NCBI GenBank assembly: GCA_027485995.1
Contig: JAIXPW010000150.1
Coordinates: 1-64,000, forward strand
Direction of reading: 5' to 3'
DNA: 64,000 nt
Origin: Verrucomicrobiaceae bacterium
Lineage (GTDB): Bacteria; Verrucomicrobiota; Verrucomicrobiia; Verrucomicrobiales; Akkermansiaceae
Translations under genes and position numbers: made by a program
Part shown: one piece after another, positions 2,484 to 40,687 of the stretch
Layout: each line of letters begins with the position of its first letter
Numbering within the stretch: the first letter of the stretch is position 1
The notes under the pieces: model-generated
Databases searched by the model: none
Told to the model about the DNA's origin: nothing
What the model saw: only the letters and a program-made list of their open reading frames with translations

Positions 2484-2516
2484 GGGAATGACTAATGACT
2501 AAATCCTAATGACTAA
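2484..2516 (+). repeat. left 33-bp terminal inverted repeat (heptad array)
   Basis: GGG followed by four 7-bp units (AATGACT, AATGACT, AAATCCT, AATGACT) and AA. It matches the reverse complement of 2880-2912 without a mismatch. Its last base is the A of the ATG that opens the enclosed gene. Confidence 0.9.
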
Positions 2517-2872
2517 TGGAAGAGGCCAGATTTGATCTTGAGGAACGCACATTTCAGTTTGCGCTCGCGGTCAGGCATTGTGTTGCCGGACACCGCTGGA
2601 GCCGCGCTCAGTGGCGTGACATCGATCAGATCCTCCGTTCTTCCGGCTCGGTCGCGGCAAACTACGTCGAAGCCGACAATGCCGTCTCAAAGCCAGACTT
2701 CATCTACCGCATTGGCGTTTCCAAAAAGGAATGCGTCGAAACCCGCCTCTGGCTCCGTCTCCTCGGAGCAACCACTTCAGAAGAATCCGTCAAAGAATCC
2801 CTGCGCCAACTCTACAAAGAAGCCGACGAACTCATCCGAATTTTCGCCGCCATTCTCCGCAAGTCCCAGTGA
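2516..2872 (+). CDS. four-helix-bundle protein (23S rRNA intervening-sequence / S23 family)
   Basis: The 118-residue protein belongs to the four-helix-bundle family first known from intervening sequences in 23S rRNA genes and related to Avd of diversity-generating retroelements. Diagnostic segments are FDLEERTFQFALAV near the N-terminus, ILRSSGSVAANYVEADNA in the middle, and KKECVETRLWLRLL. The molecular role of free-standing members is unknown. The ATG at 2516 overlaps the left inverted repeat, so translation must start within or right after it; no Shine-Dalgarno outside the repeat is possible. It interrupts an otherwise tight MoxR-BatA operon and shares no obvious function with it. Confidence 0.88.
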   Translation: MEEARFDLEERTFQFALAVRHCVAGHRWSRAQWRDIDQILRSSGSVAANYVEADNAVSKPDFIYRIGVSKKECVETRLWLRLLGATTSEESVKESLRQLYKEADELIRIFAAILRKSQ

Positions 2873-4914: not shown

Positions 4915-4950
4915 CATTCGTCATTAGGAAATTAGTCATTAGTCATTTCT
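4915..4950. repeat. solo heptad array between the BatA-like and VWA genes
   Basis: Five units of about seven bases (CATTCGT, CATTAGG, AAATTAGT with one extra base, CATTAGT, CATTTCT). It shares a 16-base stretch with the right arm of the 2484-2912 element but carries no gene. It fills the spacer between the BatA-like stop (4906) and the TTG start at 4956. Confidence 0.8.
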
Positions 4951-4955
4951 ACATC

Positions 4956-7181
4956 TTGTCCTTCTCCATCTCCAACCTCCACTTCTCGCCCACCCCGCTG
5001 ACCCTGACCATCGGGTTGCTGGCGCTGGCGGTCATTCTGGTGCTCTCCGTGCTGTCGTGGAAACGCAGCCCGCACCGGCGTCGCACCGCCATCCTCGAAA
5101 CGCTGCGAGTCGTTTCCACCCTCCTCGTCGTCCTGCTGCTTTGGAAGCCGGAGTGGCTGACGATCACCCACCCGCAGACCAAGCCGCGCATCGCGATTCT
5201 TTGGGACGACTCGAAGTCGATGAGCACCGTCGATGCCGCCCTGCCGCCATCACTTTCCGACAAGGCCACGATCGTTTCCCGCGCCGATTGGGTGAAGAAA
5301 GCCCTCGGCAGCGATCTTTGGAAGCCACTTGAGGCGAACGGCGCCAACGAGGTGCTGACCCAGCCCTTTTCCACCGCACCGGCCGAGGACCCCAGCGGCA
5401 CCGCCGGCACCGACATGACCTCGCCCATCGAAGGTCTGCTCGAACAGGAGGACAACCTTCGCGCCGTCGTGATGATCGGCGACGGCGATTTCAACCTCGG
5501 CCAGCCTCCGGTCTCCGCCGCGCAAAGGATGAAACTGCGTGGCATCCCGCTCTTCACCATCCCGGTCGGCAGCTCCGTGCGGCTTCCCGACCTTGATCTC
5601 CTGAACGTCACCGCGCCCACCTACGGCATCGTAGGGGAAAACGTGCAGATCCCCTTCACCATTCGTTCCTCCCTCGACCGCGAGGTCCGCACCGTGGTCC
5701 GTCTTCGTGATGAGCAGGGTCGCGAGCGCACCAAGGACATCACCCTCGCCCCCGGTGTGGAGACCTACGACTCCATCCTCTGGAAACTCGAAAAGGAAGG
5801 CAGCGCCACGCTCGAACTCTCGATCCCCGTCGCCAACGGTGAACGCGTGGAGTCCAACAACTCGCGAAAGTTCAACATCTCCGGTCGCCCGGAAAAGATC
5901 CGCGTGCTCGTCGTGGAATCCAATCCCCGCTGGGAATACCGCTACCTCCGCAACGCCCTCTCGCGCGATCCCGGCGTCGAGCTTTCCTGCCTGCTCTTCA
6001 CGCCGCAGCTCGGACTCGGTGAAGGCCACGACTACATCAGCGAGTTTCCTTCGAAACTCCAGGATCTCGCAAAATATGACGTCATCTTCCTCGGCGACGT
6101 CGGCGCGGTGCCTGGCCAGCTCACCAAGGAGCAATGCGAACTCATCCGTGGTCTCGTCGAGAACCAGGCCTCCGGTGTGGTCTTCATGCCCGGTCCACAG
6201 GGCAACCAATTTTCATTCCTCGACACCGCCCTCTCCGACCTGATGCCGGTGGTGCTCGATGAAACCCAGAAGACCGGATTTTCCGAGGGCATCCCCTCCC
6301 CGCTCAACCTTACCTCCGAGGGCCGTGGCTCGCTGCTGACCATGCTGGGCGACACCGAGGATGAGAACCCGCAGATCTGGCGTCGCCTCCCCGGCTTCTA
6401 CTGGCATGCCCCCGTCGTGAAGGCGAAAGGCGGCACCGAGGTTCTTGCCGTCCATGGCAACCGCCGTGGCAAGTTTGGTCCCGTGCCGCTGCTCGTCACC
6501 AAGGCCGCCCGCAATGGCAAGGTCCTCTTCATGGGCATCGACTCCGCCTGGCGTTGGCGCAAGGGCGTGGAAGACCTTTATCACTACCGCTTCTGGGGCC
6601 AGGTCGCCCGCTGGATGTCCTATCAACGGAACATGGCCTCCGGCCAGCGTGTCCGACTCTATTTCACACCCGAGCGCCCCACTCCAGGCGATGCCGTCAC
6701 CCTCAACGCCAACGCCTTTGATCCCAATGGAGCCCCGCTTCAGAACGGCACCGTCGCGGTCGATGTCACCGCTCCCGATGGCAAGACCCAGCGCGTCGAA
6801 CTCCAGGCCAACAACGCCGCTTGGGGAGCCTTCACAGGTCGCTTCAAGATCGAGGGGCCCGGTGCCTGGAAACTCCGCGCCACTGCCGGAGGAGCCGAGG
6901 ACAAGCCGGTCGAAACCACCATCCTCGCCCAAGGCATCCAGATCGAAAAAACCGGCCAGCCCGCCCGTCCGGAAGTCTTCGCGGAAATGGCGAAGGTCGC
7001 CCACGGTCGCTCGATCCAGCCCGATCAGCTCGGCGATCTGGTGAAGGAAATCCGCGCCCTGCCCGAACCCCGCCCGCTTGAGAACCGCATCCAGCTCTGG
7101 TCCCACTGGGCCGCGGTCGCCGCTGTGGTGCTGCTGTTGGGCATCTTCTGGACTGGCCGGAAATTCAACGGGGCGTTCTGA
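4956..7181 (+). CDS. membrane protein with VWA-like and glutamine-amidotransferase-like domains
   Basis: The 741-residue protein has two N-terminal membrane helices (about 15-35 and 50-64), a VWA-like metal site in WDDSKS (84-88), and a large middle part with RPEKIRVLVVESNPRWEYRYL. The middle resembles the class I glutamine-amidotransferase-like fold seen in such proteins, but no catalytic Cys-His-Glu triad is evident. A final helix WAAVAAVVLLLGIFW precedes the short cytoplasmic tail. It is the last gene of the MoxR operon. The start is TTG at 4956, just after a heptad array, without a Shine-Dalgarno. The exact role is unknown; a multi-component envelope VWA complex with the BatA-like protein is inferred. 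Confidence 0.8.
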   Translation: MSFSISNLHFSPTPLTLTIGLLALAVILVLSVLSWKRSPHRRRTAILETLRVVSTLLVVLLLWKPEWLTITHPQTKPRIAILWDDSKSMSTVDAALPPSLSDKATIVSRADWVKKALGSDLWKPLEANGANEVLTQPFSTAPAEDPSGTAGTDMTSPIEGLLEQEDNLRAVVMIGDGDFNLGQPPVSAAQRMKLRGIPLFTIPVGSSVRLPDLDLLNVTAPTYGIVGENVQIPFTIRSSLDREVRTVVRLRDEQGRERTKDITLAPGVETYDSILWKLEKEGSATLELSIPVANGERVESNNSRKFNISGRPEKIRVLVVESNPRWEYRYLRNALSRDPGVELSCLLFTPQLGLGEGHDYISEFPSKLQDLAKYDVIFLGDVGAVPGQLTKEQCELIRGLVENQASGVVFMPGPQGNQFSFLDTALSDLMPVVLDETQKTGFSEGIPSPLNLTSEGRGSLLTMLGDTEDENPQIWRRLPGFYWHAPVVKAKGGTEVLAVHGNRRGKFGPVPLLVTKAARNGKVLFMGIDSAWRWRKGVEDLYHYRFWGQVARWMSYQRNMASGQRVRLYFTPERPTPGDAVTLNANAFDPNGAPLQNGTVAVDVTAPDGKTQRVELQANNAAWGAFTGRFKIEGPGAWKLRATAGGAEDKPVETTILAQGIQIEKTGQPARPEVFAEMAKVAHGRSIQPDQLGDLVKEIRALPEPRPLENRIQLWSHWAAVAAVVLLLGIFWTGRKFNGAF

Positions 7182-10311: not shown

Positions 10312-13008
10312 TTGATCGAAGTTCGCTTCAACCGCGGCCTGTATTTGCCGGAAGCCGACCTGTGGCTCGACCCATGGGACGCGAAGCCGTCTGCCTTCGT
10401 CTCACACGCCCATGCCGACCACTTCGCGCGGCATGAAATGGCGATCTGCAGTGAGACCACAGCCATTCTGGTCAGGAAACGTTTCCACCTGGCAGAGGGG
10501 CGGATCGAGCCGGTGGCCTTCCACGTGCCTCTTGTTCGGAATGGCTTCCGATTGAAAATGCTGCCGGCCGGTCACATCACCGGATCCGCGATGCTGCATG
10601 TGACCCGGATCCGCGACGGGGCCAGCCTGCTCTACACCGGTGATTTCAAGACCCGCCGAGGGCGGACGATGGAGCCGGTCAGCTTCGTCACCGCAGATAC
10701 CCTGATCCTGGAAACCACCTTCGGCCTGCCTCAGCTCGTGTTTCCGCCCCAGATGGAGATCGAGTCGGCGGTGCTCGGCTTCGTGCATGGAGCTTTGGCC
10801 GATGGCGAGACGCCGGTGCTGTTCGGCTATTCTTTGGGAAAGGCCCAGGAGGCCCTCGCCCTGCTGCACGAGCACGGCATCCCCGTCCTGCTCCATCCCA
10901 ACGTCGCCGACATGACCGAGGCCTGCCGCGCGGCAGGGGCGGACCTTCCCGAGCCGAAGCGCTTCGAGGGCTTCGCCGTCGAGGGCCACGCCATCATCGC
11001 CCCTCCGAATGCCATCCGTTCGAAGGCCCTGCGCGGATTGAAAAGCAAGCGCACGGCCATGCTCACCGGTTGGGCGCTCCAGCCGGGGGCGAAGTATCGC
11101 TATCGGGTCGATGAGGTTTTCCCGATGTCCGATCATGCCGATCACAGCGGCCTGATGGAATGCCTCCAACGCGTCCGTCCGAAGCGGGTGCTGACCGTGC
11201 ATGGCTACGCCCAGGAGTTCGCCGCCGAATTGAGGACCCGTCGCATCGACGCCTGGTGCGCCATGGGCGGCGACCAATTGGAACTTCCAATCGCCGGAGC
11301 GCCCCAACGTGCAGCGGTGACCACCTCCTCGCACGCACGCCAGATCCGACCGATCTGTGCCTTCGCCGACTTCAGCGATCTCTGCCGCCTCGTCGGTGAA
11401 ACGACCAGCCGTCTCGCCAAGATCGAGTTCATCGCCAACTACCTCAGGGGCCTGGAAAGCGACATCGAGCTGCGGATTGCCACCGGATGGCTGACGGGAG
11501 AAGCCCTGCCGAAAACCGCCGGACGACGTTCGCTTCAGGTCGGTTCCGCCGCCCTGCGCCGGGCCCTGCTTTCCCTGCCCGGGGCCCGTGAGGAGCGCTA
11601 TCGGGAAATCTCCCTCTCCCAGAACGATGCCGCCCGCACGGCCAGACTGGTGCTTCAGGAACTGACGATCCGGCCGGAGCCCATCGATCTCGCCGCACTC
11701 GATTCATTTTTCCGGGAGCTGGCCGCGAGCCGCGGATCGCTCGAACGGATCGAACGCCTCGCGGCCAGACTGCGGTCGCTGCACCCCACCGAATCCGAGA
11801 CCCTGGTGAAACTTCTCACAGGAGATCTGCGGATCGGCCTCAAGGAAGGCCTGGTCGAGGACGCCGTCACCGCCGCCTTCAAGGCCGACCCGGCTGCCGT
11901 GCGTCATGCCCACATGCTCACCGGCGACATCGGAGAAACCGCCGTCTTCGCCCGCTACAAGACGCTCGACGAGGCCGAACTCCGCCCCTTCGTTCCGATC
12001 AAGTGCATGCTCGCCTCGCCCACCGCCGCCTCCAGCGAGATCTGGGACTGGCACAGCGACAGCGGACTGCCCCACTTGTGGGTCGAGCCGAAATACGACG
12101 GCATCCGCCTCCAGTTGCACAAGCTCGACGACCGCGTCGCCGTGTTCTCGCGCGACCTCCAGCCGCTCGACGACGCCTTTCCTGACCTGCTGGAGGCCGC
12201 CGCCAGGATTCAGCACGACTGTGTCCTCGATGGCGAACTCATCGCCTACGCGAGTGACCGCATTCTTGGCTTCAACCAGCTCCAGCAACGTCTCGGGCGA
12301 AAGCTCGCGCAGACCGACCTCTTTCTCAAGGACGGAACCCAGCCCCTCTCGGTGCCGCTGCGCTTCGTCGCCTTCGACCTGCTCTGGCACCAGGGTCAGT
12401 GCCTGCTGGAGCTTTCCCTGGAAGAGCGACGCGCCAGACTGGACTCCATCGCCCTGGAAGGGGCCTTCGAGGCCATCGCCGTGCAGCGTGTCGGCTCGAA
12501 CGAGGAGCTCGATCAGGCTTTCAAGCAGGCCCTCAACGACGGTCACGAAGGACTCATCGCCAAGGACTCCGCCAGCGCCTATCATCCCGGCCGCCGTGGC
12601 CGGTCCTGGCTGAAGTTGAAGGGCGTCATGCCGACTCTGGACTGCGTCGTGGTCGCCGCCGAGCAGGGCCATGGACGTCGCTCCGATGTGCTGAGCGACT
12701 ACACCTTCGCTGTTCGCGACGAGACCAGTGGCGACCTCCGCATCATCGGAAAAGCCTACAGCGGACTGACCGACGAGGAGATCGAGGACCTCACCGAGCA
12801 CTTCCGGAAAACCACGATCTCCAAAACCAAGCGCAAGCATCTCGTCGAGCCCGACATCATCCTCGAAATCGCCTTCGACGCCATCCGCGCCTCCGACCGC
12901 CACGACTCCGGACTCGCCATGCGTTTCCCCCGCATCAAGGCCATCCGCCGGGACAAGTCGATCGGTGAAATCGACACCCTGCAATACGCGAAGAGCCTGG
13001 TGAAGTAG
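10312..13008 (+). CDS. fusion of MBL-fold DNA exonuclease and ATP-dependent DNA ligase
   Basis: The first ~335 residues are a metallo-beta-lactamase/beta-CASP nuclease of the type linked to LigB-like ligases: metal motif SHAHADH (31-37), then TGDFKTRRGR and MSDHADHSG. The remaining ~560 residues are an ATP-dependent DNA ligase: an N-terminal domain (TTSRLAKIEFIANYLRGL), the adenylation motif KYDGIR with catalytic Lys594, DGELIAY, and the C-terminal OB part with GRSWLKLKG. In many bacteria these are separate neighbouring genes, with an Lhr-type helicase and a phosphoesterase; here they are one 898-residue chain. The start is TTG at 10312 (MIEVRFNRGLYL). It probably processes and seals DNA ends in repair. 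Confidence 0.92.
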   Translation: MIEVRFNRGLYLPEADLWLDPWDAKPSAFVSHAHADHFARHEMAICSETTAILVRKRFHLAEGRIEPVAFHVPLVRNGFRLKMLPAGHITGSAMLHVTRIRDGASLLYTGDFKTRRGRTMEPVSFVTADTLILETTFGLPQLVFPPQMEIESAVLGFVHGALADGETPVLFGYSLGKAQEALALLHEHGIPVLLHPNVADMTEACRAAGADLPEPKRFEGFAVEGHAIIAPPNAIRSKALRGLKSKRTAMLTGWALQPGAKYRYRVDEVFPMSDHADHSGLMECLQRVRPKRVLTVHGYAQEFAAELRTRRIDAWCAMGGDQLELPIAGAPQRAAVTTSSHARQIRPICAFADFSDLCRLVGETTSRLAKIEFIANYLRGLESDIELRIATGWLTGEALPKTAGRRSLQVGSAALRRALLSLPGAREERYREISLSQNDAARTARLVLQELTIRPEPIDLAALDSFFRELAASRGSLERIERLAARLRSLHPTESETLVKLLTGDLRIGLKEGLVEDAVTAAFKADPAAVRHAHMLTGDIGETAVFARYKTLDEAELRPFVPIKCMLASPTAASSEIWDWHSDSGLPHLWVEPKYDGIRLQLHKLDDRVAVFSRDLQPLDDAFPDLLEAAARIQHDCVLDGELIAYASDRILGFNQLQQRLGRKLAQTDLFLKDGTQPLSVPLRFVAFDLLWHQGQCLLELSLEERRARLDSIALEGAFEAIAVQRVGSNEELDQAFKQALNDGHEGLIAKDSASAYHPGRRGRSWLKLKGVMPTLDCVVVAAEQGHGRRSDVLSDYTFAVRDETSGDLRIIGKAYSGLTDEEIEDLTEHFRKTTISKTKRKHLVEPDIILEIAFDAIRASDRHDSGLAMRFPRIKAIRRDKSIGEIDTLQYAKSLVK

Positions 13009-16076: not shown

Positions 16077-16257
16077 CCTTACCGGCTTAGCGAGGGGTAG
16101 TCCCGGTAATCCAGAGTCTTTGCTCAGGGTCTTGCCTTCAGAGTTGGAACGCTCTGGATAAGGGGGGTATGGAGAGAGAGGAAGACTTGGAGCTGGAAGC
16201 TCCAGAGACGGACTGGAGCAGGATGCTCCAGCCACGGGTGGAGCTAGGAGGGTTGGG

Positions 16258-19077
16258 TCAGTGCGCGGCGAGCCAGTTGGGGCCGGTGCCGTGCTCGACC
16301 AGGATGGGGACGCCGTTCGGCAGAGGCAGGGCGGTCTGCATGAGGTCGAGGAGTTTTGGGACGAGGCTTTCCTTTTCCTCAAGGGCGAGGTCGAAGACGA
16401 GTTCGTCGTGGACCTGGAGGAGCATCCTGGTTTTCGCGGAGGATTCACGAAGCAGGGCGTCGATGCGGATCATGGCGAGCTTGATCATGTCGGCGGCGCT
16501 GCCCTGGATAGGGGTGTTGATGGCGGCGCGCTCGGCATTTCCCCGGATGCTCTGGTTTCCGGAAGTGAGGTCCGGGAAGTAGCGGCGGCGGCCTGTTAGA
16601 GTCTCCACGTAGCCGCATTCGCGGGCTTCGAGGATGGTGCGGTCCATGAACTCCTTGATCGCCGGATACTGTCGGAAATAGCTCTCGATGATCTCGGCGG
16701 CCTCGGTGCGCGGAATGGCGAGCCGCTGGCTGAGTCCGAAGGCGGAGATGCCGTAGATGATGCCGAAGTTCACCATCTTCGCTCCGCTGCGCTGCTCGCG
16801 CGTGACCTCATCCTCGGCCACGCCCCAGACCTTCGCGGCGGTGGCGGTGTGGATGTCGCGGTTTTCACGGAAGGCCTCGATCATCGAGGCATCGTTCGCC
16901 AGCGCGGCCATGATGCGGAGCTCGATCTGGGAGTAGTCGCAACTGAGGAGGAGATAGGAGATCGGAGATTGGGGATGGGGGATGGAAGAGTCCGAGCGAG
17001 GGACGAAGGCTTTGCGGATCTGCCGGCCCAGGGTGGAGCGGACGGGGATGTTCTGGAGGTTGGGATCGGTGGAGGCGAGGCGACCGGTGGCGGCGACGAG
17101 CTGGTGGAACTGGGTGTGGATGCGACCGGTTTCCTGGACGATGTGGCCGGGCAGGGCGTCGAGGTAGGTGCCTTTCAGTTTCGTGGCCTCGCGGTATTCG
17201 AGGATCTCGTCGATGATCGGGTGCTTGCCGGCGAAGGTGGCGAGGGTCTGCTCGTCGGTCTTGAACTGGCCGGTCTTCGTTTTCTTCGCCTTGTCGGCCA
17301 GGCCGAGTTCGTTGAAGAGGATTTCGCCGAGCTGCTTGGGTGAGTTGAGGTTGAAGGGACGACCTGCGTGGACGGCGATCGACTTCGTGAGTTCATCGAT
17401 GCGGAGCTGGAGCTGACCGCCGATCTCGACGAGCGCGGCGGGATCGATGGCGATGCCTTCCATTTCCATGCGGACAAGAACCGGCAGCAAGGGGCACTCG
17501 ATGTCGTGGAGCACCTTTTCCTGACCGGCGAGCATCGGCCGGAGCGTTTCCGAAAGCTGCCAGGTGACGTCGGCATCTTCGGCGGCGTACTCGCCTAGGA
17601 CGGCGACTGGAATGGCGGCGACGTCGAGTTCCTTGCTGGCCTTCTTGGTTTCCGCGAAGGCGAAGAGGTCGTCGGATTGCGGATGGTGGATTGCGGATGG
17701 CGGATTGGCGATTTCGACGAGCTTGATCGGCTTGTAGCCGAGCAGGGTTTCGCTGAGGTAGTCCATGGTGTGGCGCTGCTCGGGGAAGACAAGCGCGTGG
17801 GCGAGCATGGTGTCGTAGAAGGGCCCGGCGACCTCGATGCCGAGGTGCTGGAGGACGGAGAGATCGTATTTCAGGTTGTGGCCGATCTTTTCCGCAGGGC
17901 TGGAGAGCGCGGTGCGGAGAGCGTGGATCTGGGATGGGAGATCGTGGATGGGAAGATACCAGCCTTCGTGGGCTTTCCAGGAGAAGGCGACGCCTAACAG
18001 CTTCGCCTCGAAGCGGTCGAGGGAGGTGGTCTCGATGTCGAAGCAGAACTTGGCTTGTGCGGCGAGTTTGCCAAAGAGCTCGGCTTGTTTCTCCGGGGTG
18101 TCGGCGAGATGATAAGTGTGCGGGACGTCGGTGATGGTCTTGAAGGTATCGAAGAGCGTGGGGGCCGCATCACCGGCAGGCTGGCTGTCATCGGCGGAAA
18201 CGACGGCGCTTTCACCAAAGAGCCGCTTGGTCAGCGTGCGGAACTCGAACTCGGTGAACAAGGCCTTCACCGCCTCGTCGTCGCGCTGGGAAATCAAGAG
18301 TTCCTCCCAGCTCACGTCGAACGGCACCTGGCGGTCGATCGTGGCGAGATCCTTGGAAAGCAGGGCCTGCTCGGCGAAGGTCTCCAGGTTTTCCTTCTGC
18401 TTGCCCTTCAGCTCGGAGGTTCTTGTCAGCAGGGTCTCGATCGAACCGAAGTCCGCGATCAGCTTCTGGGCGGTCTTCGGGCCGATGCCTGGAACGCCGG
18501 GGATGTTGTCCACCGTGTCACCCATCAACCCGAGCAGGTCGATGATTTGATGCGGGTCCTGCACGCCCCAGATTTCCGGAAGCTGGGGCAGGCCGATGAT
18601 TTCATGATCGGAGCCTTTCTTTCCCGGTTTCCACATGAAGGTGGTGGGACTGAGGAGCTGGGCGAAATCCTTGTCCGGGGTCACCATGAAGGTCTCGAAT
18701 CCGGCGGCATCCGCGCGGAGAGACAGCGTGCCGATGAGGTCGTCGGCTTCGTAGCCGTCGAGCTCGATGACGGGAATGTGGAAGGCGGTGCAGAGTCGCT
18801 TCACCTCCGGAATCGCGGCCGCCAGTTCCTCCGGCATTTCATCGCGCTGGGCCTTGTAGGCCGGGTATTTCACGTGCCGGGCGGTCGGCGCGGAGGTATC
18901 GAAGGCCACGCCGAGATGGGTCGGCTTTTCCTTTTCCAGAATGGTCAGCAGGGTGTTGATGAACCCGTAGAGCGCGGAGGTGTTGACGCCCTTTGAGTTT
19001 CGGATCGGGTTCTGGATGAAGGCGAAATGGGCCCGATAGACGAGCGCCATGCCATCGAGCAGGAAGAGGCGGGGCAT
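16258..19077 (-). CDS. polA: DNA polymerase I
   Basis: Replicative repair polymerase with 5' nuclease, 3'-5' exonuclease and polymerase domains; 939 residues. The 5' nuclease starts MPRLFLLDGMALVYRAHFAF. The proofreading domain keeps DIETTS, GHNLKYD and YAAEDAD, so exonuclease activity is expected. The polymerase domain has motif A DYSQIELRI (714-), motif B RSGAKMVNFGIIYG and motif C VHDELVFDL. The ATG at 19077 was chosen because it opens the conserved nuclease; upstream sequence is a heptad repeat. Two extra segments, about residues 457-469 (SAIHHPQSD) and 698-709 (SSIPHPQSPISY), coincide exactly with 35-bp heptad arrays and are absent from E. coli Pol I. Confidence 0.96.
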   Translation of the reverse strand: MPRLFLLDGMALVYRAHFAFIQNPIRNSKGVNTSALYGFINTLLTILEKEKPTHLGVAFDTSAPTARHVKYPAYKAQRDEMPEELAAAIPEVKRLCTAFHIPVIELDGYEADDLIGTLSLRADAAGFETFMVTPDKDFAQLLSPTTFMWKPGKKGSDHEIIGLPQLPEIWGVQDPHQIIDLLGLMGDTVDNIPGVPGIGPKTAQKLIADFGSIETLLTRTSELKGKQKENLETFAEQALLSKDLATIDRQVPFDVSWEELLISQRDDEAVKALFTEFEFRTLTKRLFGESAVVSADDSQPAGDAAPTLFDTFKTITDVPHTYHLADTPEKQAELFGKLAAQAKFCFDIETTSLDRFEAKLLGVAFSWKAHEGWYLPIHDLPSQIHALRTALSSPAEKIGHNLKYDLSVLQHLGIEVAGPFYDTMLAHALVFPEQRHTMDYLSETLLGYKPIKLVEIANPPSAIHHPQSDDLFAFAETKKASKELDVAAIPVAVLGEYAAEDADVTWQLSETLRPMLAGQEKVLHDIECPLLPVLVRMEMEGIAIDPAALVEIGGQLQLRIDELTKSIAVHAGRPFNLNSPKQLGEILFNELGLADKAKKTKTGQFKTDEQTLATFAGKHPIIDEILEYREATKLKGTYLDALPGHIVQETGRIHTQFHQLVAATGRLASTDPNLQNIPVRSTLGRQIRKAFVPRSDSSIPHPQSPISYLLLSCDYSQIELRIMAALANDASMIEAFRENRDIHTATAAKVWGVAEDEVTREQRSGAKMVNFGIIYGISAFGLSQRLAIPRTEAAEIIESYFRQYPAIKEFMDRTILEARECGYVETLTGRRRYFPDLTSGNQSIRGNAERAAINTPIQGSAADMIKLAMIRIDALLRESSAKTRMLLQVHDELVFDLALEEKESLVPKLLDLMQTALPLPNGVPILVEHGTGPNWLAAH
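16951..16985 (-). repeat. heptad array inserted in frame in polA, next to motif A
   Basis: Five 7-bp units on the plus strand: GAGATAG, GAGATCG, GAGATTG, GGGATGG, GGGATGG. On the coding strand they are read as the segment ending PHPQSPISY, about five residues before the catalytic DYSQIE motif. The open frame is kept. Confidence 0.85.
17673..17707 (-). repeat. heptad array inserted in frame in polA, before exonuclease motif III
   Basis: Five 7-bp units on the plus strand: CGGATTG, CGGATGG, TGGATTG, CGGATGG, CGGATTG. It is translated as part of ANPPSAIHHPQSD and lies between the Exo II and Exo III motifs. Same unit count and length as the other polA array, with a different consensus. Confidence 0.85.
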
Positions 19078-19090
19078 GCGGGAAAGAGAA

Positions 19091-19118
19091 AGTGCCAAGG
19101 GCCAAGTTCCAAGTGCCA
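19091..19118. repeat. heptad array immediately upstream of polA
   Basis: Four units AGTGCCA, AGGGCCA, AGTTCCA, AGTGCCA, ending 13 bases from the polA start codon. It occupies the ribosome-binding region and part of the divergent spacer to the gene at 19209. Confidence 0.8.
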
Positions 19119-19208
19119 AAGGGGGAGAACGCACGAAAAGCGGCCCCGGGTCTCCTCGCGAAAATTCTTCCCAAGATCGGGGGGGAGCCGCTACGTATCC
19201 CTTCAACA

Positions 19209-20036
19209 ATGAACTGGTTTCCCATGCTTCTCGGAATCGGCGCGGCCGGTGTTGCTGGCTATGTCCTCGAGCCCTCACTCCGTGAAGGCCTGACCGGAGA
19301 GGCCCCGAAGGCGAAGGTCGTCGTGGTGACGGAGCCGGTGGTCGAGGAGGAGGTCGTTTCCCCCGTCGATCTGAGCGGCCTGCAGCCGGAGCAGCTTCCC
19401 GAGCAGATCCTGCTCAAGGTCGCGGCCGAAGTGGGTGACCCGACCAACGTGGCCGCCCCCAAAATGCAGATCCCTGCCGGCGCCAAGGTCAAGGGTCTGC
19501 GGATCGAGGGACAGAATCTGGTCATCAGCCCCGGAGCCGGCCCCTACGAAGGGAAAGTGGCGATTCGCGGCACTGATCTCGTCCAGCAGCTTGCCGCCAA
19601 TCCGCCGAAGCCGGTGGTGGCGAAGCAGCCCGAGCCACCTCCAGTGGTCCCCACTCCCCCACCCGTCACGGAACCGACGCCCACTCCGACGCCCGAGCCC
19701 GAAGTGGCGACCAGTGGGGAATCCAAGCCTGAGCCGGTGATGCCAGAGCCCACTCCTACCCCGGCGACACCTGCCGTCCTCGGAGAGTCCGACATCGTCA
19801 AGATCATGCAGGACAGCTACAAGAGCGGGCTCATCAAGGAATTCGTGGCCGACAAGGCGACCTCCTGGAAAGCCACCGGCGAAGAGAAGATCGATGGGGA
19901 AACCTATCAAACCGGCCTGGTGGACTACAGCGCGGAGACCATTTTCGGAGTCAAGAACGTCCAGGCCAAGGCCTTGATCAAGGGCGGCAAGGTGCTCAAG
20001 TGGATCTCGCCCAAGAGCGGCATGGAAATCAAGTGA
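19209..20036 (+). CDS. secreted or membrane-anchored protein with Pro/Thr-rich linker, function unknown
   Basis: A 275-residue protein. An N-terminal hydrophobic segment (NWFPMLLGIGAAGVAGYVL) may anchor it or act as a signal. A first domain of about 90 residues is followed by a proline-, threonine- and glutamate-rich linker (about 130-195, with PTPTPTPEPE). The C-terminal domain of ~75 residues (SDIVKIMQDSYKSGLIKEFV then TYQTGLVDYSAETIFGVKNV) resembles small beta-rich cargo domains but fits no family I can name. The ATG at 19209 was chosen because it starts the hydrophobic segment. It diverges from polA. Confidence 0.75.
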   Translation: MNWFPMLLGIGAAGVAGYVLEPSLREGLTGEAPKAKVVVVTEPVVEEEVVSPVDLSGLQPEQLPEQILLKVAAEVGDPTNVAAPKMQIPAGAKVKGLRIEGQNLVISPGAGPYEGKVAIRGTDLVQQLAANPPKPVVAKQPEPPPVVPTPPPVTEPTPTPTPEPEVATSGESKPEPVMPEPTPTPATPAVLGESDIVKIMQDSYKSGLIKEFVADKATSWKATGEEKIDGETYQTGLVDYSAETIFGVKNVQAKALIKGGKVLKWISPKSGMEIK

Positions 20037-35561: not shown

Positions 35562-38049
<2,488 letters not shown>

Positions 38050-38053
38050 AAGT

Positions 38054-38260
38054 TCAAATCGAAGAAGCGTCTCCTCCCCCACCATCACCGCCGCCATTGA
38101 GCCACCTGTCCGCTTCCCTCCACTTCTTCTCCATTTCCTCCAGCTTCCTCTCGCGCGGCGTGATCTGAAGCTCTTCGGGAAGATCGCGATAGCACCCGGG
38201 ACATTTCCCGAAACCCCGGGCAACGATCCGCTCTCCGCAGTGCTGGCAGTGGAGGTTCAT
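38054..38260 (-). CDS. small zinc-ribbon protein
   Basis: A 68-residue protein starting MNLHCQHCGERIVARGFGKC, with a CxxC pair and CPGC that form a zinc ribbon. A charged helix follows (RERKLEEMEKKWREADRWL), then a Gly/Asp-rich tail. The ATG follows directly on an attC-like core (GTTAAG), so it is the last cassette-like gene of the minus-strand string and has no promoter of its own in view. Function unknown. Confidence 0.6.
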   Translation of the reverse strand: MNLHCQHCGERIVARGFGKCPGCYRDLPEELQITPRERKLEEMEKKWREADRWLNGGGDGGGGDASSI

Positions 38261-38355: not shown

Positions 38356-38793
38356 CTATTGGTCATCGCCATTGAGAATACCCACGACCCGATTCACGTA
38401 TCCAGTCTGCTCCTGATACTCCGAAATGATCTGGGGGCAAGTCGGAACGACGATCCCCATCTCCGCGAGTGCTTCTAGAATGGGAGACACTCGATCGACT
38501 GCTTCGGAATGGGGTAGTCCTGGGGATGATGGGAGTTCGACGTGAACTCCAGAATTCCAGATGGTAATCATCGCGCCGAGATATTGGCGCGTCGGATCGT
38601 CCACCTCAAACTCGCACATATGGTTCAGCACCTGATCCCGAGGCACGCCAATATCCTCGGCCACGGCATTCAGGTCGAGTGGTATCTCAACTAGATCGGG
38701 AAAAGTTCCGAGAAGATGATCCCTGACCCGGGCGTTTCGCCCGTGAATAGGTGCCGCGTCTGCCGGCCAATGGCAGGTAATATCAAAGCTCAT
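38356..38793 (-). CDS. small orphan cytoplasmic protein
   Basis: A 145-residue acidic protein (MSFDITCHWPADAAPIHGRN at the start) of no family I recognise. It has no signal peptide or membrane helix. The pattern of alternating strands and helices (YLGAMITIWNSGVHVELPSS) suggests a small alpha/beta domain. It lies directly upstream of an attC-like site and downstream of another imperfect inverted repeat, and has no functional neighbours, as expected of a cassette gene. Confidence 0.6.
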   Translation of the reverse strand: MSFDITCHWPADAAPIHGRNARVRDHLLGTFPDLVEIPLDLNAVAEDIGVPRDQVLNHMCEFEVDDPTRQYLGAMITIWNSGVHVELPSSPGLPHSEAVDRVSPILEALAEMGIVVPTCPQIISEYQEQTGYVNRVVGILNGDDQ

Positions 38794-38816
38794 ACAGGTA
38801 ACGATGAGCGCTTGCC

Positions 38817-38899
38817 CCTCTACCAGCGAGGGCGCGCGTCGATTACGGGGTTCGGGTTGTGGTCCGGGAAGATCATCGAAACAGGGCGGCTGGTAGAGG
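38817..38899. repeat. 11-bp inverted repeat between two small genes
   Basis: CCTCTACCAGC (38817-38827) and GCTGGTAGAGG (38889-38899) are perfect complements 61 bases apart, within the spacer between the lipoyl-like gene and the orphan gene. It might be a degraded attC, but the outer core boxes do not match, so only the dyad is claimed. Confidence 0.4.
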
Positions 38900-38938
38900 T
38901 TGTCATGAAGCGGCTTGTTGTGCTTCTTGATCTTTGCG

Positions 38939-39322
38939 TCAGTGGCTCAAGCGTGCGAGGAATTCACGGATACAGTTGAGCGCAAACACGTCCCTCTTAA
39001 TCGTTCCGCGATGCGAATCGATCAAGCTAAGATCGGTATTGGACAACTCAAGCATCTGGATGGTCGCACCATCCTTTCGAATCAAGCCATCATGATTGAT
39101 GTAACCAATGGAATCTCCAAAAACCACGGGCATACCTTCATGCTTGGAATGGTGTAAATACCCATCAGTTTCGGCTTCGATGTCTAAAGTAGCCTTCTTG
39201 GTCTCCAGCGTCGCAATCAATTCACCTCGGGCTACAAGGCACGCATCAGCCTTGTGCCATCGGGAAAGCACACAGGACTTGGTGCTGTCACCAAGTGATG
39301 GAGCGATAATCTGGGACTTCAT
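38939..39322 (-). CDS. lipoyl/biotinyl-like domain protein
   Basis: A 127-residue protein whose middle resembles a lipoyl/biotinyl carrier hairpin: GELIATLETKKATLDIEAET then DGYLHHSKHEGMPVVFGDSI, with the modifiable Lys position in TKKA. Unlike pyruvate dehydrogenase carriers it stands alone and is followed by about 50 residues of unknown role. Its ATG overlaps the stop of a short upstream frame (39319-39440), indicating former coupling to another gene. No dehydrogenase, carboxylase or ligase is near. It could act in a small acyl-transfer or sugar-modification pathway, but that is only inference. Confidence 0.6.
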   Translation of the reverse strand: MKSQIIAPSLGDSTKSCVLSRWHKADACLVARGELIATLETKKATLDIEAETDGYLHHSKHEGMPVVFGDSIGYINHDGLIRKDGATIQMLELSNTDLSLIDSHRGTIKRDVFALNCIREFLARLSH

Positions 39323-39440
39323 TTCTGCACATCAGTCTCTATTCGTAGGATCTGACCGCACGATATCGGCTGAATCCCACTTGGGTCCAAGATGTCTAAG
39401 ATCCTTGATTTAACAACGATTTTCTTGGGGCAAGGTGGAG
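39319..39440 (-). pseudogene. 3' remnant of a gene formerly coupled to the lipoyl-like gene
   Basis: An open frame of about 40 codons (ILDILDPSGIQPISCGQILR near its middle) ends in a TGA that overlaps the ATG of the lipoyl-like gene. It has no usable start codon and is closed upstream by a stop at 39441-39443. It seems to be the tail of a lost operon partner. Confidence 0.3.
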
Positions 39441-39501
39441 CTATCGGGTCATCCGGTGTTCGGCCTTCAAGCGGAACCTGCCGGGACTGATATCAGGCAA
39501 G

Positions 39502-39600
39502 ATTTTCGAATTTCGAATTTCGAATTTCGAATTTCGAATTTCGTCATTCGTCATTCGTCATTCGTCATTCGTCATTCGTCATTCGTCATTCGTCATTCGT
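39502..39600. repeat. long homogeneous heptad array (14 units)
   Basis: About six AATTTCG-type units followed in phase by eight identical TCATTCG units, 98 bases with a strict 7-base period. It ends 8 bases before the lpxI stop codon. This is the longest and most uniform array in the window, so it probably expanded recently. Confidence 0.92.
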
Positions 39601-39607
39601 CCTCCCC

Positions 39608-40626: not shown

Positions 40627-40654
40627 GAATGACGAATGGGGAATGACGAATGAC
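40627..40654. repeat. heptad array upstream of tRNA-Leu
   Basis: Four units GAATGAC, GAATGGG, GAATGAC, GAATGAC. It is the inverse of the CATTCGT units at 39544-39599. It lies just beyond the stop of the haem-binding protein gene. Confidence 0.8.
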
Positions 40655-40687
40655 GATGCAGAGCGGGTTTGTTGAGCGTCAGCGTCT

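Follow-up and report, generated by a model that had tools for sequence, protein, structure and literature searches.

Short tandem arrays of 7-bp units (heptads) lie in frame inside the DNA polymerase I gene (polA) of the Verrucomicrobiaceae genome analysed here (G000). Arrays of this type are dense in the genome, occupy internal positions of further core genes, recur at the same protein loops in some relatives while the sites are empty in others, and are replaced by different arrays between sister genomes; one stretch of 30 bp is shared by polA and purL. What these arrays reveal seems to be a DNA-level copying process that reshapes proteins in this bacterial group.

Heptad arrays within polA

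The window (the whole stretch of DNA analysed, 64,000 nucleotides) contains polA at 16258..19077 on the minus strand, identified with Pfam and NCBIfam profiles and with MPRLFLLDGM as the likely start; the mechanically called reading frame spans 16258-19278, and the likely start codon is at 19077, where the alignment of relatives begins. Site 1 (16949..16985, minus strand) is an in-frame heptad array in the loop before polymerase motif A; it encodes SIPHPQSPISYLL and leaves the polA frame open, the translation across the site being SSIPHPQSPISY. With its flanking codons, the novel segment (16954-16995, minus strand) encodes SDSSIPHPQSPISY, and it includes the 30 bp (16964..16993, minus strand) that are identical to part of purL of the same genome, non-heptad lead-in included. 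Directly downstream lies the coding region (16921..16941, minus strand) of the CDYSQIE segment, which we take to be polymerase motif A. Site 2 (17673..17708, minus strand) is an in-frame array in a linker of the 3'-5' exonuclease domain; it encodes NPPSAIHHPQSD and the frame, again open, reads SAIHHPQSD. Site 4 (17922..17949, minus strand), also in the exonuclease domain, is a decayed array of four ATC-phased heptads, and the linker that follows the 5'-3' exonuclease (site 3) apparently carries other repeats, not heptads. A GGCACTT-type heptad array (19090..19119, minus strand) is situated immediately upstream of the probable start codon of polA. Just downstream of the gene there is a tandem repeat of ~26 bp (TGGAGCAGGAAGCTCCAG-like, window 16188-16249), and the alignment with both sister genomes ends within this repeat region, at 16236.

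Tandem Repeats Finder reported two overlapping rows at 16949-16985 and one at 17673-17710. The lag-7 self-match scores are 18 for site 1 and 11 for site 2; at the other lags from 4 to 13 no score in polA exceeds 8, and none of 1000 codon shuffles of the gene reached 11 (maximum 10). The two arrays and the open frame described in the earlier note are therefore real, and the in-gene array at 17922-17949 is a third one, which it had missed. The predicted model of residues 382-1006 (mean pLDDT 87, pTM 0.87) matches the Klenow fragment (1kfs; TM 0.86/0.89) and places the core of site 1 (pLDDT <50) in a loop immediately ahead of the strand running into motif A (DYSQ). Site 2 overlaps a low-confidence linker stretch (148-168) of the predicted PolA model, and site 4 has high model confidence and overlaps a helix. 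The modelled positions of sites 1 and 2 agree with the proposal of the earlier note that the arrays enter tolerated loops.

Among 80 named loci (the best 80 of 145 confirmed), the site 1 turn, measured from FVPR to CDYSQ, comprises 16-17 residues in 58 relatives and 19-42 residues in 22, the longer ones carrying mostly unrelated inserts; this genome exceeds the 16-17 residue turn by 11 residues. Conserved residues shared by the Pol I sequences of relatives, which would mark an ancestral loop, are thus not found at site 1. In a separate, overlapping set (the own genome and 29 relatives, 30 of 60 genomes searched) the turn has 16-18 residues in 25 of the 29 family relatives. Heptads, scored by eye on the DNA, are present at site 1 in 10/80 (L061, L062, L068, L075, L077, L080, L083, L101, L105 and L128). 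A mechanical test for periodicity, which calls any 3-mer occurring three times at lag 7, is positive in 12 of 81 rows, as opposed to 0, 2, 1 and 0 rows at lags 5, 6, 8 and 9; among the positives, L084 has a turn of empty length and L070 is doubtful, and one of the rows scored by eye (L077) fails the test. The four loci L063-L066 (79-82% identical), which apart from the two sisters are among the nearest relatives, have an empty site 1, and in L105 (82% identical) the site is filled. A polA tree of 53 rows, computed by a quick method with sites 1 and 2 removed and containing several weak forks, requires at least 15 changes between insert and empty and at least 9 between heptad and empty. The net gains at heptad-filled site 1 are 18, 21 or 33 bp, mostly not multiples of 7. 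Site 1 is thus a recurrent landing site for different heptad arrays as well as other dispersed repeats in scattered lineages. The other repeat-like inserts in this loop (L069, L073, L074) include a GAGTCT..GACTC-like and a ACAGGCGTCCCGCCTGT-like one.

At site 2 the linkers of relatives are of similar or greater length, so the array there fills a variable linker, and the "extra residues" of the earlier note hold for site 1 only. Here the mechanical test is positive in 10 of 81 rows at lag 7 versus 4, 9, 3 and 11 at lags 5, 6, 8 and 9, a periodicity count that by itself does not set lag 7 apart among the 81 rows. ATC occurs in phase in 9/81 rows, and in an unconditioned 3-mer count, which is descriptive only, it ranks first at both site 1 and site 2 (8 and 9 of 81 rows); a sequence logo with an ATC core was discarded as proof, because the first logo had been conditioned on ATC. 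The sister genome G061, with a polA 97% identical, has a completely different array at site 2, and L063 displays successive, different ATC-phased units, changing at almost every unit. At site 4, overt arrays in relatives (L063, L101, L105) replace a YSDSLLPALRSLL-like segment with a gain of only two residues, which indicates overwriting rather than adding. The term "inserted", used in the earlier note, is accordingly apt for the net gain at site 1 and has to be qualified elsewhere, with host residues partly overwritten and at most a slight net gain at site 2.

Arrays in other genes and in the genome

The expectation that further core genes would be affected was borne out for purL, mfd and priA. 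In purL (L056:4715-9226) four in-frame arrays were identified (sites A-D); the purL query matched 21 of 24 genomes, and among 17 relatives readable at site A, 9 carry heptads, 7 are short and 1 has another insert (by eye). The same gene encodes ~250 extra residues (residues ~620-870) that match the Pfam family Kinase-PolyVal (722-861) within FGAM synthase; this region is missing in most relatives, whose purL matches come in two parts on either side of it, and present in G061, G083, G072 and G066. Internal arrays are found also in mfd, priA and the genes of a U32 peptidase and a PfkB kinase. The mfd site is filled in G000 and in the sister G060 (99% identical) and empty in the sister G061 (96-97%), the net gain being 15 bp, not a multiple of 7; heptads were seen by eye at this site in 5/20 relatives, and in 5/19 readable relatives in priA, where the array sits just before the GVTGSGKT motif. 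The frame L375:1803-3242 combines a 23S rRNA intervening-sequence domain (a four-helix bundle) with the PfkB kinase, joined across a heptad array, which possibly made the fusion. Most filled cases come from metagenome-assembled genomes; the L065 genome, however, belongs to an isolate (Luteolibacter marinus NBU1238), and with heptads at purL site C and in priA it shows that metagenome bins are not the only place where the phenomenon occurs.

The 30 identical bases of polA site 1 and purL site D encode SSIPHPQSP in the same frame in both genes, and the first eight of them are non-heptad. With up to 3 mismatches allowed, the genome contains the first 23 bases of this stretch exactly twice. Within 713 kb of this genome, nothing else matches polA sites 2 and 4 or purL sites A and B over 18 bp or more; the polA/purL pair is the one cross-gene copy of these inserts found, and no donor event was caught.

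A 249-kb sample, made up of contigs selected by their number, contained 11 lag-7 arrays, versus 0, 0, 1, 1 and 1 in five replicates of a third-order Markov null, i.e. ~44 arrays per Mb versus ~2; an earlier 464-kb sample (37 arrays) was biased, as its contigs had been picked partly for BLAST hits, and the 249-kb sample was used for the density. In the G000 samples the prevailing lags are 7 and its multiples, and the whole genome contains 152 matches to a pattern of four ATCs spaced 7 bp apart, versus 17 to the reversed pattern. The units differ widely (GGCACTT, TGACGAA, GATCACC, CAATCCC and others), and the sampled arrays other than those of polA and purL are mostly located between genes or at gene ends. 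The complete relatives G036 and G019 have 1 array per 200 kb each (null 0-2 and 0-1), and these two heptad-poor genomes, near their null, have short site 1 turns of 16 and 18 residues. Genome load is higher where site 1 bears heptads (one-sided Mann-Whitney p = 0.036, 10 versus 27 genomes, with 12 genomes bearing other inserts excluded), a result that is supportive only, as the comparison ignores phylogeny and is sensitive to long arrays; in L063, whose load (95/Mb) ranks among the highest, site 1 is empty.

Between genes, an array can switch its unit in block at constant 7-bp phase (TCGGATT to GGGGATT). The longest array of the window (39504-39601), for which no bracketing was achieved in either sister genome, changes abruptly from TTTCGAA to TTCGTCA units in the same phase. 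Heptads of the TGACTAA/TGACGAA type, a unit that can supply overlapping stop and start codons, lie in or near short gaps between ORFs (window 2487-2518, 2880-2909, 4915-4947 and 40627-40656). Dispersed repeats other than heptads were also noted: repeats of ~100-200 bp at window ~37930-38056, 38793-38944 and 39321-39512, each sister genome holding many copies, and high-copy repeats of 170-230 bp in L051 (~6732-6905, 11794-12024 and 18900-19078), which have many partial copies in the sisters. The motif CTCTTCC precedes 5/46 G000 arrays (~0.1 expected) at the 5' edge of the C-rich strand and 0/46 at the other edge, and in other loci 11/85 with homologous copies included; as a universal boundary motif it was rejected, for most arrays lack it, and no constant array ends were seen among the G000 arrays. 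A hairpin or palindromic element (MITE or Rickettsia palindromic element, RPE) was likewise dropped as a candidate, as the seven array segments that were folded contain no significant hairpins (z-scores -0.76 to 1.71).

Turnover between sisters and the origin of the arrays

The sister genomes (~92-97% identity) supply before/after pairs. Bracketing in a sister genome succeeded for 14 of the 36 arrays whose flanks were usable, the low number being due mostly to the sisters having been fetched in part only; 8 of the 14 have kept their length in the sisters concerned, 4 have gained or lost bases (one of them exactly 7) and in 2 cases a different array has taken over. Among the 8 is purL site C, which was bracketed in one sister only and is replaced in the other. 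Arrays replaced between sisters comprise polA site 2 (in G061), purL site B (in G060) and purL site C (in G061), and at window 24410 G000 differs from both sisters by one 7-bp unit.

The account that in our opinion probably holds is that dispersed heptad arrays are copied into genes at the DNA level, overwriting host bases, and that the events which are in frame and located in loops survive. Short stretches of array would be copied to new places, most likely by repair or by replication template switching onto another array, and the copied stretch would overwrite or displace a few host bases instead of being simply added. An established array could then shrink or grow by 7-bp units, acquire point mutations or give way to a different array. 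Intergenic arrays would survive at any length and genic copies only if they keep the frame, contain no stop and occupy a loop or linker, a restriction that would make arrays collect at the same PolA, PurL, PriA and Mfd loops across species. The copying mechanism, its direction and the role of selection as a filter are inferred.

A different possibility is homologous recombination between lineages, in which old filled and empty alleles and different arrays would be passed on and turnover between sisters would reflect gene flow. The mfd locus agrees with it: the flanks of the empty site in G061 have 10/60 mismatches on the left and 5/60 and 10/60 on the right, compared with 2/60, 3/60 and 3/60 in the other sister, and from this divergence the empty allele is likely to be a short-tract import from another lineage. 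For polA site 2, however, the flanks of the replaced array show 3/60 and 3/60 mismatches versus 3/60 and 4/60 in the unswapped sister, so the swap is confined to the array, and at purL site B the values (1/60 and 3/60 versus 3/60 and 4/60 in the other sister, whose array is unchanged) likewise reveal no excess. Import also leaves the origin of the arrays and the many separate gains at one turn unexplained, and as the source of the pattern as a whole it is unlikely.

Local slippage, by which arrays would grow in place from chance seeds and similar units at different loci would be convergent, fits the single-unit difference at window 24410 and the host bases ATCGCC at site 2, which are in register with the array. 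It does not account for genic net gains that are mostly not multiples of 7, for the replacement of host residues at site 4, for whole arrays that differ between sisters or for the unrelated non-heptad repeats in the site 1 loop, and it is strained by the 30 bases shared by polA and purL, non-heptad lead-in included. Slippage alone is insufficient for the array swaps, the shared 30-mer and net gains of 15, 18 and 33 bp, and we regard it as a rather unlikely explanation. The strict 7-nt phase with abrupt change of unit, which plain slippage does not readily give, hints at templated writing, and one could imagine a dedicated or semi-dedicated process in Akkermansiaceae that writes heptad-register DNA over host sequence and thereby keeps supplying core enzymes with new loop sequences; we give this more ambitious proposal little credence.

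Selection at the protein level, with disordered Ser/Pro/Gln/Asn-rich loops being favoured and repeats serving as a convenient source, might be suspected from the resemblance of the encoded peptides (IPHPQSP, ISNLQSPIS, IHNPQSPI). Against it, similar arrays are common between genes, the peptides at one site vary by species and the site 1 insert is missing from most relatives, which renders this explanation very improbable. Finally, the null of the earlier note, ancestral variable loops with coincidental periodicity, finds some comfort in the naturally variable linker of site 2 and can practically be dismissed, given the codon shuffles, none of which reaches the score of either array, and the short, empty turn at site 1 in the majority (58/80) of the best 80 of 145 confirmed loci.

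Relation to known repeats

The arrays of the polA type are best regarded as members of the known heptanucleotide repeats that behave in a new way, similar to RPEs in action and not palindromic. They share with dispersed heptanucleotide tandem repeats the 7-bp unit, the many dispersed copies and the variation of copy number between relatives. Such repeats have so far been treated mainly as intergenic sequences of unknown function; the heptads described here reach enzymes of replication, repair and purine synthesis repeatedly, and lie within a few residues of PolA motif A and the GVTGSGKT motif of PriA. They offer a natural system for studying the spread of tandem heptads among bacteria and the extent to which essential proteins tolerate being rewritten by non-homologous DNA, and they call for caution, as an insertion seen in a loop when these enzymes are aligned is not necessarily a functional adaptation. 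The open-licence literature yielded no paper on heptad arrays in core genes of Verrucomicrobiota or Akkermansiaceae. Heptanucleotide repeats (STRR) of heterocystous cyanobacteria, reportedly described by Vioque in 1997, are said to occur also inside rnpB. They are likewise short tandem repeats in a conserved gene; rnpB encodes an RNA, whereas the arrays analysed here reside in protein-coding core genes.

RPEs insert in frame in core genes, including the gene for a DNA polymerase subunit, at solvent-exposed places, and their hotspots possibly hold different elements, according to the parts of the literature consulted (PMC3767692, PMC10969869). The comparison made in the earlier note is apt for this behaviour, the in-frame entry into core genes at tolerated places, and does not extend to membership: RPEs, as far as these sources describe them, form defined families of palindromic elements of 100-150 bp, whereas the arrays within genes here are ~30-80 bp long, built of many different units, unit-periodic and free of significant hairpins. 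The TAACTGA repeats of Beggiatoaceae are dispersed heptads, mostly intergenic with some in ORFs (PMC4679880, MacGregor 2015); they comprise one unit, whose copies within ORFs mostly affect hypothetical proteins or the ends of proteins, and the part of that account drawn on here describes no turnover at fixed internal loops, which is present in our case. The four-heptad elements of Geobacter metallireducens (PMC2700814) are a homogeneous family proposed to act as regulatory RNA, and in the corresponding part of that report there is no comparison of host-protein loops such as the one made here.

Close counterparts are the GGGNATC-type heptameric repeats of Xanthomonas and Nostoc, which are 7-bp, genome-wide and variable in copy number (PMC4692102, Rehm et al. 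2015). The arrays of this genome resemble them in the dispersed 7-bp units, the variable copy number and the sometimes opposite orientation of two arrays, and differ from what is described there in the many unrelated units, the in-frame arrays in core genes and the swaps between sisters. G-quadruplex formation has been described for the Xanthomonas/Nostoc subgroup; four stretches of at least three G are not present in the polA arrays. The GATTGGG-type units found here are close to the Nostoc unit GGGGA(C/T)T as given in that source (PMC4692102).
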